This document shows, one piece after another, positions 10,669-62,861 of a stretch of DNA of 64,000 bases. How positions within the stretch are numbered: the stretch's first letter is position 1; every line of letters begins with the position of its first letter. The DNA is from Cupriavidus basilensis. GTDB lineage: Bacteria > Pseudomonadota > Gammaproteobacteria > Burkholderiales > Burkholderiaceae. The stretch covers positions 1-64,000 of the forward strand of contig NZ_BBQM01000016.1 of the NCBI RefSeq assembly GCF_000876015.1, written 5' to 3'. The notes beneath the pieces are model-generated. The model did not search any database, was not told the origin of the DNA, and was given only the letters and a program-made list of their open reading frames with translations. A program made the position numbers and the translations under genes.

Positions 10669-11008
10669 TCTTGACCAAATCGAAGCGGCCGCCCGCGCCG
10701 CCGGCTACGAGACGCGCCGCTACCGTGTGCGCGAACTGGAGGTCGTCCATATCGGGGTGGGCGATCAATGGGCGCTGTTCGATCCTCGCCGCAGCGACGT
10801 GGATGCGCTCAGGCTGATGGTCGACTGCCGCCTCAACGTCGGCGTGGGCGAGCGCAGGGTGACTGCTACCGCCTACCCCGGCGGTGTGGCGCTGACCGTC
10901 ATCGAGGATGCCGGGGATAACCGCGCGGCAGCTACCCGCATCGCAATCACGCGCGCTGCTGAGGCGCTGTATCTGCACAGGCAGGCAAAGGAGCAAGCGC
11001 AATGGTAG
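10661..11008 (+). CDS. Hypothetical phage protein, 115 aa
   Basis: N-terminal helix, then strands (RRYRVRELEVVHIGVGDQWALFDP) and a segment DALRLMVDCRLNVGV, ending in a helix (AAATRIAITRAAEALYLHRQ). It resembles the phage proteins that sit near ninB and are sometimes annotated NinX-like, but I cannot confirm a family. Overlaps the next reading frame by 7 nt. Confidence 0.55.
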   Translation: MSDLDQIEAAARAAGYETRRYRVRELEVVHIGVGDQWALFDPRRSDVDALRLMVDCRLNVGVGERRVTATAYPGGVALTVIEDAGDNRAAATRIAITRAAEALYLHRQAKEQAQW

Positions 11009-11175
11009 ATGGTGATATGTACGGCGAGGGCGTCATGACGGTCACGGCCGCATGGTTCGCATGGCGCCCGGTCCGTCTCGGCGCCGGGCGCTGGGCATGG
11101 CTTCAGCGGGTGAGGAGAATCAGAACGAAGGCTTTGTGGCGCGATTGCCGCACCATCTACCAGCCGATTGAGTGA
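11002..11175 (+). CDS. Short phage protein, 57 aa
   Basis: ATG at 11002 overlaps the previous stop and the stop overlaps the GTG of NinB. The sequence MVDGDMYGEGVMTVTAAWFAWRPVRLGAGRW... is Trp/Arg-rich, with a WLQRVRRIR segment suited to nucleic acid or membrane contact. Overlap on both sides is the main argument that it is real. Function unknown. Confidence 0.5.
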   Translation: MVDGDMYGEGVMTVTAAWFAWRPVRLGAGRWAWLQRVRRIRTKALWRDCRTIYQPIE

Positions 11176-11588
11176 CCGAAATCCACCGCGAATTCGTCCT
11201 CCGCGGCCGCGCGGACTGGCAAGAGGTGGTAGCCACCGTCCGGGCTGCCGGCCCGGCGATGGCGGAGCGGGGCACACCGCTGCGCTTGGTCTTGGTCGAC
11301 GAGTCGCAAGACAGGCTGGAAGAACAGGTGAAATTTTACTGGTCGGCGGTGATCGAGCCCATCGCCGAGCAGGTGTGGATCGGCGGCCGGCAGTTCTCGG
11401 CGAAGGCATGGCACGTCGAGATGAAGGAACGCTTCCTGCCGGTGCGCGAGATGCGCATGCCGGACGGGACGGTAAGGATGGTGGCGCCATCGATCGCGCG
11501 CGGCGAGATCACCGTGGGCGCCATGTCCGAATACACAAAGAAGGTAGCCGCGCATGCCGCGAGCGAACTAGGGGTGCAGTTTGATTAA
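11172..11588 (+). CDS. ninB: NinB-family recombination protein, 138 aa
   Basis: Matches NinB (lambda Orf): an N-terminal alpha/beta region, LVDESQDRLEEQVKFYWSAVIEPIAEQVWIGGRQFSAKAWHVEMKERFLP, then VGAMSEYTKKVAAHAASELGVQF. Lambda Orf helps load recombinases on SSB-coated DNA and can replace RecFOR. Starts with GTG overlapping the previous stop. Normal length. Confidence 0.85.
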   Translation: MTEIHREFVLRGRADWQEVVATVRAAGPAMAERGTPLRLVLVDESQDRLEEQVKFYWSAVIEPIAEQVWIGGRQFSAKAWHVEMKERFLPVREMRMPDGTVRMVAPSIARGEITVGAMSEYTKKVAAHAASELGVQFD

Positions 11589-11614
11589 CCCGGGTCCCTT
11601 TCAGGGGCGGGAAG

Positions 11615-11947
11615 ATGGGCGTACATGCCAAGCGGCGCGCTGCCTGGGAGGCGGCGGGCCAGTTGACATTGCAGTTGGAGGTTCGGGCGCGGACGCATCG
11701 TGAGCGGATACTGGAGGTGCTGGCCGAGAGCAATGATTTTCTCGTCGGCCAGGAGGTGGCGCGGCGGGCCGGGCTGCCGTACAAGCCGGCACTGGACGCG
11801 CTGACCTACCTGTACAACGATGGGAAGATCGCGCGGGTAGGGCGGAAATTCACGGCGCGCTGGGGGCGGATGACGCTGGTCCAGCGGGACACTGGATACA
11901 CTAACCTTGAGGCGTTTTTCCGTGGTGTAGGCGGCCGAGTCGAATAG
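11615..11947 (+). CDS. Winged-helix protein at the lambda Q position, 110 aa
   Basis: Residues 30-85 form a winged helix (RTHRERILEVLAESNDFLVGQEVARRAGLPYKPALDALTYLYNDGKIARVGRKF). GGCGGGAAG precedes the ATG. It is the last early gene, immediately before the structured noncoding region and the late lysis genes, where lambdoid phages encode the late activator (Q). It is therefore the best candidate in the window for a protein acting on the late promoter motif; there is no sequence similarity to Q. Confidence 0.65.
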   Translation: MGVHAKRRAAWEAAGQLTLQLEVRARTHRERILEVLAESNDFLVGQEVARRAGLPYKPALDALTYLYNDGKIARVGRKFTARWGRMTLVQRDTGYTNLEAFFRGVGGRVE

Positions 11948-11964
11948 CGGCAGCGCCCTATAAT
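11939..11964 (+). promoter_or_regulatory. Promoter of the structured RNA region
   Basis: A perfect TATAAT (11959-11964) stands out in GC-rich DNA. GTCGAATAG at 11939-11947 resembles the upstream box of the late promoter motif (CTCGAATWG), at 11 rather than 12 nt spacing. There is no consensus -35 box. The expected start is near 11971, after the stop of the winged-helix gene. Confidence 0.6.
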
Positions 11965-11970
11965 TAAGAC

Positions 11971-12645
11971 CTCAATGCCCCGTAGATAGCCCGGGAACCC
12001 AGCCGATGGGAGGTCATGAGGCCTGCAATGCCGCAAGCAGGCGAAGGATCGGCAAAGATGGCGCCGCAGGCGGGACAGCCGCCAAAGCATCCTGCCTGCC
12101 TTCATGCATGGTGATTGCATCCGGTACGCGAAATCCGGTTATCTGCCTGCCCGTCGCGGGGCAATGAAATTGGCAGAGAGGTCCATGAGGGCCGCAGTAG
12201 TCACCATCCGTGAAGACCCACCCTGAGATGGGGCATTGAGGTGCGCTAGTTGTCTGTCGTGAGCGCGCGGAGCCCTGAGACAGACTTACCCGAGGCGCTT
12301 GCTGGGCTGAAGAATCGGGGACGCGGCATAGCTAAAACCCAGCACTCTCACGCATGGCGATTGGGCCGAGTTGCGCCAACGTCGGGTAGCGCACGGTACA
12401 GGACCGTGTATCTGCGTCCGGCGGATCAATCGCCAGCCGCGAGGGAATGCGCAGGCTGATGCGCTAAAACCTAGCAGTCGGACGATGCGGATAGCTGTGG
12501 CCTGAAAAACTGTCCCAGAGCCTGCGGTGGCAAAGGGCATGAGCGTCAAGCCGGATCGGGTGTAATGGCCAAACGACACGCAAGCCGGAGACCAGCGCCG
12601 GCCCCTCACCCAAGCCCTGCCTCGTGCGGGGCTTGTTCTTTTCTG
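11971..12645 (+). ncRNA. Candidate large structured noncoding RNA, about 675 nt
   Basis: No convincing reading frame on either strand. Perfect nested stems occur throughout: 12002-12007/12048-12053 enclosing 12021-12026/12037-12042; 12069-12073/12079-12083; 12104-12108/12116-12120; 12148-12152/12159-12163; 12252-12258/12279-12285 (7 bp); 12301-12306/12338-12343; 12355-12362/12428-12435 (8 bp) enclosing 12392-12397/12403-12408. A motif GCTAAAACCYAGCASTC recurs at 12331-12347 and 12463-12479. A TATAAT box precedes it and a terminator follows. The position matches the late leader of lambdoid phages, but the size and complexity recall large phage RNAs such as GOLLD. I cannot test membership of any known class. 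Confidence 0.65.
12612..12643 (+). terminator. Terminator at the end of the structured RNA
   Basis: Stem AAGCCC (12612-12617) / GGGCTT (12629-12634), with partial inner pairing, followed by the interrupted T tract GTTCTTTTC. It separates the RNA from the lysis operon promoter at 12652. Confidence 0.7.
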
Positions 12646-12651
12646 CTTCGC

Positions 12652-12678
12652 CTCGAATAGTTCACCGCCCAATACCAT
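12652..12678 (+). promoter_or_regulatory. Late promoter motif, copy upstream of lysis genes
   Basis: CTCGAATAG (12652-12660), 12 nt, then TACCAT (12673-12678). It lies 29 nt before the holin-like gene and just after the terminator of the structured RNA. One of five close copies with identical spacing (also 24927, 25278, 34182, 36848) plus weaker ones at 17963 and 11939. Confidence 0.65.
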
Positions 12679-12707
12679 CGTCTCATTCTCAACCGAGTGA
12701 GACGACA

Positions 12708-12998
12708 ATGCCCCGATTCCCCAAGAGCCACGCGTTGCAAGACCGCTTGCGCATGGCTATCTGGCTGCTGTTCGGCCTGGCCTTCTATGTCGCCGTGTTG
12801 CTGATCGACGGCACCCGATTCCCGACCGTGCAGGTCACGCTCCAGAAACTGGGCCACGTCACCACGTTCGCGTGGGTGGGCTACTGGATTGCCCGGCAGG
12901 CGCTGGGCCGGGTGTACGCCGCCAGCAGCTCGCAGGACCGGCTGGCGCGCGCCATCGTGATCGCTGGCGTGATCATCGCTGGCTTGACGGGGCTCTGA
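12708..12998 (+). CDS. Putative holin, 96 aa
   Basis: Three hydrophobic segments (about residues 20-37, 54-71 and 81-96) and a basic N-terminus (PRFPKSHALQDRLR). It opens the lysis cassette, which runs on to a transglycosylase and spanins, so a holin role is the natural reading. No named holin family is recognised. A small inverted repeat (TCTCA/TGAGA) sits just before the start. Confidence 0.65.
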   Translation: MPRFPKSHALQDRLRMAIWLLFGLAFYVAVLLIDGTRFPTVQVTLQKLGHVTTFAWVGYWIARQALGRVYAASSSQDRLARAIVIAGVIIAGLTGL

Positions 12999-13000
12999 TC

Positions 13001-13279
13001 ATGGCAAAGATCCTCTCATTCCTCTGCTTCTTCTTCCACCCCGTCGCGCTCGCCATCGATCTGATGGTCCTGCTTGTGTGGTCATCCATCGGCCTGATCG
13101 GTACCCCTGCAAGCAGCGGGCGCCCGTACACGTGGACCACCTCGGCGGCGCTTCTGGTTGTCCTGTTGACGCTGTTCTTGCTCGGGCGCTGGGCCGGGCG
13201 GCTGGCGGAGCGTGAGCGGGCGCGGAAGATCCGCGATGGCCTGGTCGATCTGGTGCAGGCAATCCGGAGTGCACTATGA
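13001..13279 (+). CDS. Second small membrane protein of the lysis cassette, 92 aa
   Basis: Two clear transmembrane helices (residues 4-30, with LSFLCFFFHPVALAIDLMVLLVW, and 49-65) and a charged C-terminal tail (RLAERERARKIRDG). It could be the antiholin or a second holin component. It overlaps the next gene by 4 nt. Confidence 0.6.
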   Translation: MAKILSFLCFFFHPVALAIDLMVLLVWSSIGLIGTPASSGRPYTWTTSAALLVVLLTLFLLGRWAGRLAERERARKIRDGLVDLVQAIRSAL

Positions 13280-13974
13280 GCGACCAAGCCATCGAGCAGG
13301 AAATCCAAGCCAAGGGCAAGACCGCGCCGCGTGTCACGCCGGCCGACATCGAAGCGAACATCGACAGCGAGCACTATTTCACGGCGGCCGACGGCATCGA
13401 CGGCGGCATAGTTGCTGGCTACAGGTATCCGGGTCCGCTCGACCTGCTGACCTTCTGCGTGCTGGTGTTGCGCAACGGCTTCACCGTGACCGGCGAGTCG
13501 GCCTGCGCCAGCCCGGAGAACTTCGACGCCGAGATCGGTCGCAAGATCGCCCGCGCGAACGCTGTGCAGAAGGTGTGGTCGCTGATGGGCTATGCCCTGC
13601 GGGAGCGCCTTCACCAAGCAGCCGAAGCCCAGCCGGAACAGCAGGAGCCGCCGGCCATCCCCGCCGAAGACCGCGCACTGCCGGCCGACACGGAGCTGAC
13701 GCCGCCGGCGCCCGAGTCGGTGGAGTGGCGGCCGCGGATCGGCAACACCGTCATCCACAAGGGCTACATCACCAACGGCGCCGACGAACACCCAGCCATG
13801 ATCACCCGGGTACATGGCGTGGGCGAGGGCGCGCTGGTCAACGTGACCGTGTTCCCTGACATGCAGTCGCCCAAGGTCTACGCCAGCATCCCGGTCTACA
13901 CCAGCCGCAAGGCCGCTCGCGAAGCCTTGGCCGGCCCGTCGCGCGCCAACGGCTACGCATACCGGGACGAGTGA
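13276..13974 (+). CDS. Gp49-family phage protein with C-terminal extension, 232 aa
   Basis: Residues 1-115 match the phage gp49/66 family: KTAPRVTPADIEANIDSEHYFT, then LTFCVLVLRNGFTVTGESACASPENFDAEIGRKIARANAVQKVWSLMGYALRERL. The family is widespread in phages and has no known function. The second half, after a Pro/Glu-rich linker, is an unfamiliar beta-rich domain (NTVIHKGYITNGADEHPAMITRV, VNVTVFPD). The fusion and its place inside the lysis cassette are unusual. Confidence 0.75.
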   Translation: MSDQAIEQEIQAKGKTAPRVTPADIEANIDSEHYFTAADGIDGGIVAGYRYPGPLDLLTFCVLVLRNGFTVTGESACASPENFDAEIGRKIARANAVQKVWSLMGYALRERLHQAAEAQPEQQEPPAIPAEDRALPADTELTPPAPESVEWRPRIGNTVIHKGYITNGADEHPAMITRVHGVGEGALVNVTVFPDMQSPKVYASIPVYTSRKAAREALAGPSRANGYAYRDE

Positions 13975-14639
13975 TGAGCACACGCGCCTCTCGCGCCCGT
14001 CGGACGGCCGCCCCCGCCAACCCCAAGGCGTGGATGCGCCGTGGCGCCATCGTCGCGCTGCTGATCCTGGCTGAACTCTACCTGCTCGCGGCGCTCGCCT
14101 GCGCCCAGATCCCGCCGGCGGCGAACCAGTACCGCCAGGCCATCGCCCGCGAGACGGCTTTCCGTTTCGGCGTGACCGGCCCGGTGCCCGTGGTCGCCGC
14201 CCAGATCATGCAGGAGAGCAAGTTCAACCCGCTGGCGCGCAGCCAAGTGGGCGCCCAGGGGCTGATGCAGTTCATGCCGACCACGGCGGAATGGGCCGGC
14301 CAGGCTGGGGTGGATGGCCCGGTGCAGCCCCTGAACCCGCAGTGGAGCATCCGCGCCGGGGTCTGGTACGACCGCTGGCTGTACGACCGCGTGAAGGTGG
14401 CTGAAACCGAATGCGACCGCTGGGCATTCGCCCTATCGGGATACAACGGCGGGAGCGGATACGTCAACAAGCGCCAGAAATTGTCCGCGCGCCCGGGCAG
14501 TTGGGCGGAGACGGGACAGATCAACCCCGGCATCCACCCGGCGAACCAGCGCGAGAACCAAGCCTACCCGCACCAAATCCTGGGCCGCTGGCAGCCGTTG
14601 TTCAAGACCTGGGGCCGTCCGGTCGCATATCCATGCTGA
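13974..14639 (+). CDS. Signal-anchored lytic transglycosylase endolysin, 221 aa
   Basis: A basic N-terminus and one hydrophobic segment (residues 24-44) are followed by an SLT domain: AAQIMQESKFNPLARSQVGAQGLMQFMPTTAEW carries the catalytic Glu (QES) and the GLMQFMP motif, and FALSGYNGGSGYV completes it. The anchor suggests a SAR-type or signal-exported endolysin that cuts peptidoglycan once released by the holin. An alternative GTG lies 3 nt upstream. Confidence 0.85.
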   Translation: MSTRASRARRTAAPANPKAWMRRGAIVALLILAELYLLAALACAQIPPAANQYRQAIARETAFRFGVTGPVPVVAAQIMQESKFNPLARSQVGAQGLMQFMPTTAEWAGQAGVDGPVQPLNPQWSIRAGVWYDRWLYDRVKVAETECDRWAFALSGYNGGSGYVNKRQKLSARPGSWAETGQINPGIHPANQRENQAYPHQILGRWQPLFKTWGRPVAYPC

Positions 14640-50532: not shown

Positions 50533-50692
50533 GGTGTCTCTTTGAATCGATGGATGGAAATGCGCCGGTTGCGCGCCGGCTTACTAGAATCCATCAACAC
50601 AGTGAGGCAATGGCTAGCGAATTTTCCTAAGTGCAATACGGAATCATCTCGATATTGCGTACTTGTTCGTAATTTGCGCGCCGGGCACCCGC

Positions 50693-62785: not shown

Positions 62786-62861
62786 GGGTGCTTAGCTCAG
62801 TTGGTAGAGCGGCGCCCTTACAAGGCGTAGGTCGGGGGTTCGAGCCCCTCAGCACCCACCA
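62786..62861 (+). tRNA. tRNA-Val (anticodon TAC)
   Basis: Cloverleaf complete: acceptor GGGTGCT/AGCACCC, D arm with AGCTCAGTTGGTAGAGC, anticodon loop CTTACAA, T arm GGGGGTTCGAGCCCC, discriminator A and encoded CCA. A GGGTTGCGC-type repeat occurs upstream (62585-62618), and TTGGCA near 62679 may be part of its promoter. Confidence 0.97.

Follow-up and report, generated by a model that had tools for sequence, protein, structure and literature searches.

What kind of element fills the gap between the NinB-like and holin genes of this phage region, where a first-pass annotation saw a transcript candidate devoid of genes? The window (the whole stretch of 64,000 nt of DNA that was analysed) carries the genes given below, and the stretch in question, 11939-12645, is embedded among them in the order NinB-like, holin, endolysin, terminases. 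It spans 707 nt and not the 675 nt at which it had been put.

11172-11588: NinB-like gene, just 5' of the gap
11615-11947: unassigned 110-codon ORF, without a PHROG match and with an AbiEi_4 match that is sub-threshold only
from 12708: holin gene
from 13971: endolysin gene
from 15548: small terminase gene
from 16453: large terminase gene

That the gap lacks a convincing reading frame, as was first proposed, is borne out in that the three ORFs tested in it (11947-12708; one of them, 11809-12120 on the minus strand, begins outside) gave no match to PHROG or Pfam, and a coding function for the stretch was set aside on that account. Its longest stop-free runs are of 67-69 codons on the plus strand and 119 on the minus strand. 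Dense structure was likewise a sound call: none of 20 dinucleotide shuffles folds as well as the 707-nt stretch (z=-2.4), and the stems singled out at the time, TGGCGATT at 12355-12362 with AATCGCCA at 12428-12435 around CACGGT/ACCGTG, are real. The signals proposed for its two ends fared less evenly. The perfect TATAAT is present at 11959-11964, but no -35/-10 pair was found around it and the 2 occurrences in the 64-kb window do not exceed the 2.8 expected; a terminator-like hairpin with a T-rich tail does stand at 12611-12635, but such sites (2 in 11000-14000, against a shuffle mean of 1.7) are no commoner than in shuffled sequence. Set against a lambdoid late leader, the gap has the terminator-like hairpin and is followed by the holin, and no Q gene was found among the two ORFs tested just upstream of it (11172-11588 and 11615-11947).

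Rfam 15 gave no name to the element: no family was matched by the window RNA, nor by the related cores described below, in the searches run, and only tRNAs at 62786 and 62954 reach the cut-off in the 64-kb window. Matches to cobalamin, mir-645 and isrJ there were under cut-off and were dismissed as chance. The first reading overlooked that many phages share two of the stems, 12348-12442 and 12441-12607, as conserved elements, and that the former is present twice, its other copy being the stem at 12102-12213. The elements of the window RNA are as follows.

11959-11964, + strand: TATAAT, weak candidate for the -10 box of a late promoter, lacking a -35 and not above chance
11969-12242, + strand: domain closed by a 15-bp helix (11969-11983 with 12228-12242) in the MFE fold, holding hairpins and scaffold copy A
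12102-12213, + strand: P0 copy A, UCAUG-CA-UGGUGA (12102-12114) with UCACCA-UC-CGUGA (12201-12213) around an 86-nt insert
12348-12442, + strand: P0 copy B, UCACG-CA-UGGCGA (12348-12360) with UCGCCA-GC-CGCGA (12430-12442) around a 69-nt insert
12441-12445, + strand: 5' strand of helix P1, GAGGG, partner 12603-12607
12446-12448, + strand: conserved AAU linker
12449-12464, + strand: P2 hairpin, GCGCA-GGCUGA-UGCGC, loop L2 at 12454-12459
12465-12583, + strand: hypervariable insert (cassette) of 119 nt
12584-12602, + strand: P4 hairpin, GCCGG-AGACCAGCG-CCGGC, loop L4 at 12589-12597
12603-12607, + strand: 3' strand of helix P1, CCCUC, contiguous with P4
12611-12645, + strand: intrinsic-terminator-like hairpin with T-rich tail, likely the 3' end of the RNA

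No homologue was found for most of the 5' 400 nt of the RNA, nor for the outer 15-bp helix (11969-11983/12228-12242), which is therefore without covariation support. In addition a near-repeat, GCTAAAACCCAGCA and GCTAAAACCTAGCA, occurs at about 12330-12345 and 12462-12477, that is 5' of scaffold B and at the start of the insert.

The route to relatives of the 3' part lay through the same genome, where BLAST of the stretch showed two short blocks recurring in order in contig C23 and one of them also in contig C11; in phage PAJU2 one of the blocks lies in the gap 3' of Q, and two conserved hairpins were apparent on reading these loci. A 24-base pattern matched 105 IMG/VR contigs and a second-hairpin pattern gave at least 120 matches, while a pattern run on GTDB genomes gave at least 117 stretches, mostly from Beta- and Gammaproteobacteria by record title and in part false. 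Short queries run against 50,697 phage records gave matches in 188, 193 and 161 of them at E<=10, chance matches included, and in 219 at E<=0.05. The genome matches needed pruning: a strict pattern found no P4 in 46 of the 117 listed, among which 20 have a helix P1 partner and a P4-like hairpin (judged by reading) and about 16 resemble conserved coding frames (for instance in Dyella and Rhodanobacter).

Window 12437-12611 is a member of a family of structured RNAs carried by numerous phages and prophages of Beta- and Gammaproteobacteria, and it is close to certain that this family is real. The core runs from the 5' strand of helix P1 through AAU, P2, the insert and P4 to the 3' strand of helix P1; by consensus P2 has 5 bp and a GGCUGA loop, and P4, stacked directly on helix P1, has 5 bp and the loop AGAUCAGCR. 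The two loops are complementary, such that a loop-loop helix of 5 bp can form. An unconstrained MFE fold of the window core returns exactly the same helices P1, P2 and P4, and its L2 and L4 offer GCUG/CAGC, four of the usual five pairs, alongside a single A-C mismatch. Linkers of exactly 3 and 0 nt are found in 266 of 283 candidate cores; this set was chosen for pairing, and its pairing was therefore left out of the evidence from covariation.

For that evidence, helix P1 was scored on 68 flank-nonredundant genome loci among the matches listed, picked by their P2 strand and by a P4 sequence pattern, P1 playing no part in the choice. From the inside outward its pairs form in 99, 96, 94, 99, 99, 94 and 90% of loci, as against shuffled means of 97 (the first pair being near-invariant), 67, 54, 68, 42, 46 and 46%, and all four Watson-Crick types are found at the six inner pairs. 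Selection on P4 (10 of 121 matches listed had no usable GCTGA, and the other 111 reduced to 88 loci) left P2 with 51 canonical stems, 11 compensated on both sides, 10 with G-U and 16 not fully paired, some of these last probably being the wrong site. The compensated P2 stems are GCGUA/UACGC, GCGAA/UUCGC, GCCCG/CGGGC, GCACA/UGUGC, GAGCA/UGCUC and ACGCA/UGCGU; those of P4, in loci selected on the 5' strand, include GCCAG/CUGGC, GUCGG/CCGAC, GCGUG/CACGC, GUAGG/CCUAC and GCAGG/CCUGC. An alignment, A1, of 51 of 135 nonredundant cores (all with inserts of 41-59 nt except L050, L100, L168 and L312), for which helix P1 was not required and P4 had to match a loose pattern, has 98.0% of its cells paired against 86.1 when shuffled, two-sided changes in 133 cells against 34.5, and a covariation score of 0.322 against 0.090 shuffled and at most 0.117 slid.

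The loop-loop contact can be followed where the P2 loop is altered. Scans for such variants gave 15, 9 and 10 contigs, from which 26 were accepted as members, some of them near-copies of one another, while L382, L383, L386, L388, L392, L395, L396 and L398 were dropped for want of a P1 partner or a full core. The P4 loop matches in 22 of the 26: GGUGA is accompanied by CAC(C/U) in 15 of 15, GUUGA by UCAAC or through a G-U pair in both cases, and GCCGA by CGGC in 5 of 6; the four uncompensated members are one GCCGA and the three with GAUGA (0 of 3). Covarying pairs are present in the homologous cores in P1, P2, P4 and between the loops, and covariation supports all four helices, compensatory loop-loop changes included.

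A covariance model of the core, R1, was built from the 51 cores of alignment A1 with the window left out and a core of its own genome, L010, in the training set. Against the 64-kb window its best match is the core (42.9 bits, E=1.5e-10, model positions 1-105). The next, at 50550-50598 (15.3 bits, E=0.024), is almost without insert and probably due to chance. Against the whole genome the window core is split into matches of 29.6 bits (E=1.7e-4) and 19.4 bits (E=0.17), probably on account of its long insert. R1 locates a core in each of 14 annotated phage regions taken from BLAST matches and in PAJU2, HK620, D3 and phage P1, with two cores in a P1-like plasmid; carriers of the family include D3, PAJU2, HK620, HK633, P1-like phage-plasmids and phage P1 itself. 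A spread of 398 Pseudomonadota genomes that included the present one gave matches at E<=1e-3 in 21, of which 7 exceed 38 bits, and the enteric core strand is found, at >=80%, in 995 of 5426 complete Escherichia coli genomes. Matches to tmRNA and tmRNA_permuted near HK620 and phage P1 were rejected as chance. In phage Magnus (L122) successive R1 matches at 2495-2588 and 2625-2728 (32.9 and 41.1 bits) make a possible tandem of cores. No description of the family was found in the titles and abstract openings of open-licence PMC papers.

The conserved arms of the core hold inserts that behave as exchangeable cassettes. Among 221 unique cores the insert is 19-178 nt long (median 74) and falls into 172 k-mer clusters. 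With 232 of 269 records kept, repeated and short-flank ones having been removed, 50 (25 groups) of 169 same-insert pairs have neither flank related, and of 146 pairs that are related in both flanks, 78 (12 groups) carry unrelated inserts. The copies in C23 and C11 of the window's own genome have related flanks around inserts of 47 and 100 nt, and one 46-nt insert is common to phage P1, a P1-like plasmid, an Escherichia contig and the metagenomic viral contigs L045 and L050. Where might such inserts come from? The window insert (query 527-645) has no match in its own genome at E<=1 save the ends of neighbouring matches, which gives no sign of a host origin. That of phage P1 was found in 546 of 5426 E. 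coli genomes, with plasmids accounting for 550 of the 558 places, and at E<=10 all of these are copies of itself; a long antisense or host-derived insert was rejected for it, and only short seeds are therefore possible. Insert lengths modulo 3 divide into 63, 85 and 73 of the 221, and stops occur in all three forward frames in 106 of the 221 cores, while frame 0 is open in 85 and frame 1 in 63; with so many open in some frame, stops alone decide little on coding.

Just 5' of the core a set of loci, several of them from Burkholderiales, have a further helix, P0, of the type UCACG-CA-UGGCGA ... UCGCCA-GY-CGUGA around a variable insert of its own, to which corresponds an enteric type, CACAAC-AGGUAAGAGCA ... 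UGCUCUUUCC-GUUGUG. The window holds two copies, B lying directly 5' of the core and having one A-C mismatch in its outer helix. One inner pair is compensatory, U-A in copy A and L022 and C-G in copy B and the other loci compared. Of 174 flank-nonredundant cores, 16 have the 10-mer TCACGCATGG in the 800 nt that precede them. Judged by eye, there are tRNA-like sequences among the P0 inserts. P0 and helix P1 strands overlap or compete for partners, and an alternative fold is therefore possible. Some variants of the arrangement may be recorded. A lone 5' half of P0 (L365 1500-1536, in a genome of the same family) lies directly 3' of a terminator-like hairpin, with no core seen in the 3 kb examined, and looks like a remnant; at L062 4585-4665 a P0 element lies 3' of a core with no further core after it; and L045, L110, L121 and L273 have an extra small hairpin 5' of P0, often with a GAAAGA-like loop and with differing stems.

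Our preferred reading, to which we would give a probability of about 0.6, is that the stretch encodes a non-coding phage RNA of several hundred nt whose 3' domain belongs to a cassette-presenting family. The genomic surroundings of the core bear on this reading and on its rivals. The position in the window recurs: in HK620 and HK633 the core is in the late leader between the annotated pR' (tQ is also annotated in HK620) and the holin gene, and in PAJU2 between Q and the gene preceding endolysin, which upholds the initial view of a structured non-coding phage RNA in late-leader position. It also suits a leader acting in cis on termination or translation of the late (lysis) genes, be it as a pR' leader or an RNA-polymerase-modifying RNA, the more so in that the upstream strand (CACAAC/UCACG) and the 3' strand of helix P1 may compete for one sequence, a possible switch. 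Yet in the window's own genome a core lies opposite two long phage-like ORFs (capsid- and scaffold-like by eye only), in Bas77 it is on the strand opposite the tail-region genes, in mEp460 it adjoins the prophage repressor, in ZC08 it sits within a tRNA cluster, and in phage P1 it is part of a 2.6-kb ban leader. In addition a hypervariable insert is unexpected in a cis element. We consider such a leader unlikely for the family, and antitermination, one of the functions first suggested, is not supported as a general account of it.

Proximity to tRNA genes would suit another explanation, that the core is a tRNA-like spacer aiding the processing or stability of its neighbours in tRNA arrays. In a set of 174 cores, to which that of the window does not belong, 31 lie no more than 1.5 kb from a tRNA gene, about ten times the 1.7% of 1568 control positions; at seven loci the tRNA starts 15-18 nt 3' of P4, and at L229 an ARAGORN tRNA-Pro call overlaps the core at 534, inside the insert, to which may be added the tRNA-like P0 inserts. 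In D3 the core lies between tRNA-Met and tRNA-Gly, in phiEt88 about 120 nt 5' of tRNA-Phe, and in Magnus about 2.3 kb before tRNAs. Against this, for 143 of the 174 the locus examined shows no tRNA up to 1.5 kb away, and the only tRNAs found in the window are 50 kb from its core; a role in tRNA arrays seems to us a somewhat poorer prospect than a cis leader. (In phage Marin, L124 2387-2623, tRNA-Gly, -Asn and -Thr are annotated over the core with tRNA-like sequences some 300 nt further on, and the annotation may be shifted.) Exchange of cassettes between conserved arms might also be the work of a DNA-level recombination site with an attC-like single-strand fold, but 40 of 44 tRNAs near cores are on the same strand and a terminator follows within 100 nt 3' in 16.5% of 170 cores (again without that of the window; controls 1.6%, opposite strand 1.2%), both of which suggest transcription, and reading the annotated contexts by eye showed neither a recombinase gene shared among them nor any protein gene recurring beside the core; this is the least probable of the rivals. 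Scarcely better is a self-assembling RNA in the manner of GOLLD/ROOL, with loop-loop pairs joining molecules and the variable linker as cargo: phage carriage, nearby tRNAs and tRNA-capable hypervariable linkers recall those RNAs, as PMC12286853 describes them, but nothing in Rfam is matched, the conserved core is only about 60 nt, and the fixed 3-nt and 0-nt linkers suit a junction within one molecule.

Under the preferred cassette-presenting reading, the RNA of the window would most likely be made with late or lytic transcripts. A tRNA-like junction (P1, AAU, P2 and P4, with P4 on P1 and the 5-bp helix between the P2 and P4 loops) would present the exchangeable insert, protecting and positioning it, and the RNA would act in trans on a target set by the insert, perhaps an RNA of host or phage, or a host factor directed at tRNA; recombination of cassettes across the near-invariant P2 and P4 arms would change the specificity of the phage. 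The strand-specific structure, the loop-loop helix, insert exchange and the association with tRNAs and same-strand terminators are established by comparative sequence analysis. To the trans-acting function of the cassettes we would give even odds. A precedent by analogy would be the STnc100-related PasD, which according to the preprint PMC13192938 is Hfq-bound and has its own seed. More tentatively, and here our belief falls a little short of even, the core may be part of a phage-wide modular system, an STnc100-related kissing-loop socket with swappable RNA cassettes (sometimes tRNA sequences) exchanged across its arms, which on the same reading would extend over proteobacterial phages, both temperate and virulent, as well as phage-plasmids like P1. 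Such a system, if real, would correspond in RNA to exchangeable accessory genes, reprogramming host RNA or translation or countering tRNA-directed defence. The family, though matched by no Rfam 15 entry in our searches, is present in phages as well known as P1, D3 and HK620; it would account for some of the long phage leaders that look 'empty' and for some gaps in tRNA islands.

Phage P1 is an excellent laboratory model for the family. Its site is between dmt and ban, 3' of the C1-controlled ban promoters annotated in NC_005856, in a region with a dicF-like part, tRNA-Asn, tRNA-Thr, a P0 with tRNA-like insert, an R1 core (63.2 bits, about 69817-69918), an STnc100-like site (70080-70199) and tRNA-Ile. 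On the minus strand plp and upl are annotated over tRNA-Thr, P0 and core (L411 4973-5542, record positions 69472-70041) and may not be real genes. Weak R1 matches are at L408 3236-3360 (20.8 bits) and, in phage P1, at L411 5579-5702. This last is the STnc100-like site, a hybrid-looking intermediate that scores with both models, 33.4 bits for STnc100 and 19.8 for R1, and it is for this reason that a relation to STnc100 is proposed.

How near is that relation? STnc100 (RF02076, a gammaproteobacterial prophage sRNA) has, like R1-type RNAs, a helix P1, AAU, P2, a variable middle and P4 contiguous with P1, and both are phage-borne. Seven STnc100 loci above cut-off, together with L185, share this P1-AAU-P2...P4 junction with differing P1 sequences, and 10 distinct STnc100-type sites, sought with that AAU, have it and 0-nt linkers. 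The P2 and P4 sequences and the loops differ, however, and the R1-type cores tested fall below the STnc100 cut-off: RF02076 (gathering score 47) matches neither the window nor, at E<=5, positions 11900-12720, and was absent from all 15 core-bearing loci searched and, at E<=2, from the HK620 leader, and R1 conversely detects none of the seven canonical STnc100 loci up to E=5. R1-type RNAs differ further in having hosts beyond Gammaproteobacteria, the P0 scaffold and the tRNA association. Since the junction is the same, the family is counted as kin of a known RNA, and from topology and the one intermediate we infer a single superfamily with STnc100 in which the R1 type is a distinct branch; this would tie an orphan sRNA to a far larger group, and if the link fails the R1 family would be a new class. 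PMC13192938 relates STnc100 to PasD, a base-pairing prophage sRNA with a different seed that was found, with target RNAs, by RIL-seq on Hfq, and PMC12370729 places STnc100 in vesicles, with a target proposed only.

GOLLD and ROOL, according to PMC12286853, are phage- or prophage-borne large RNAs near tRNA genes or islands, with hypervariable linkers able to hold tRNA. The likeness of R1-type RNAs to them is one of lifestyle and variable linkers and not of sequence, the conserved part being much smaller and Rfam giving no match; the relationship to GOLLD at first suspected here is, on the latter point, not supported. With the lambdoid late leader, from pR' to tR', the cores share their place in HK620, HK633 and probably the window, but unlike it they also occur away from late promoters and in other phage types. 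Lastly there is tRNA itself, in which two hairpins touch through their loops above a stacked closing helix, with a short linker. The window core has no match to the Rfam tRNA model, yet the R1 core follows the same plan, with a 5-bp loop-loop helix in place of the D/T elbow.
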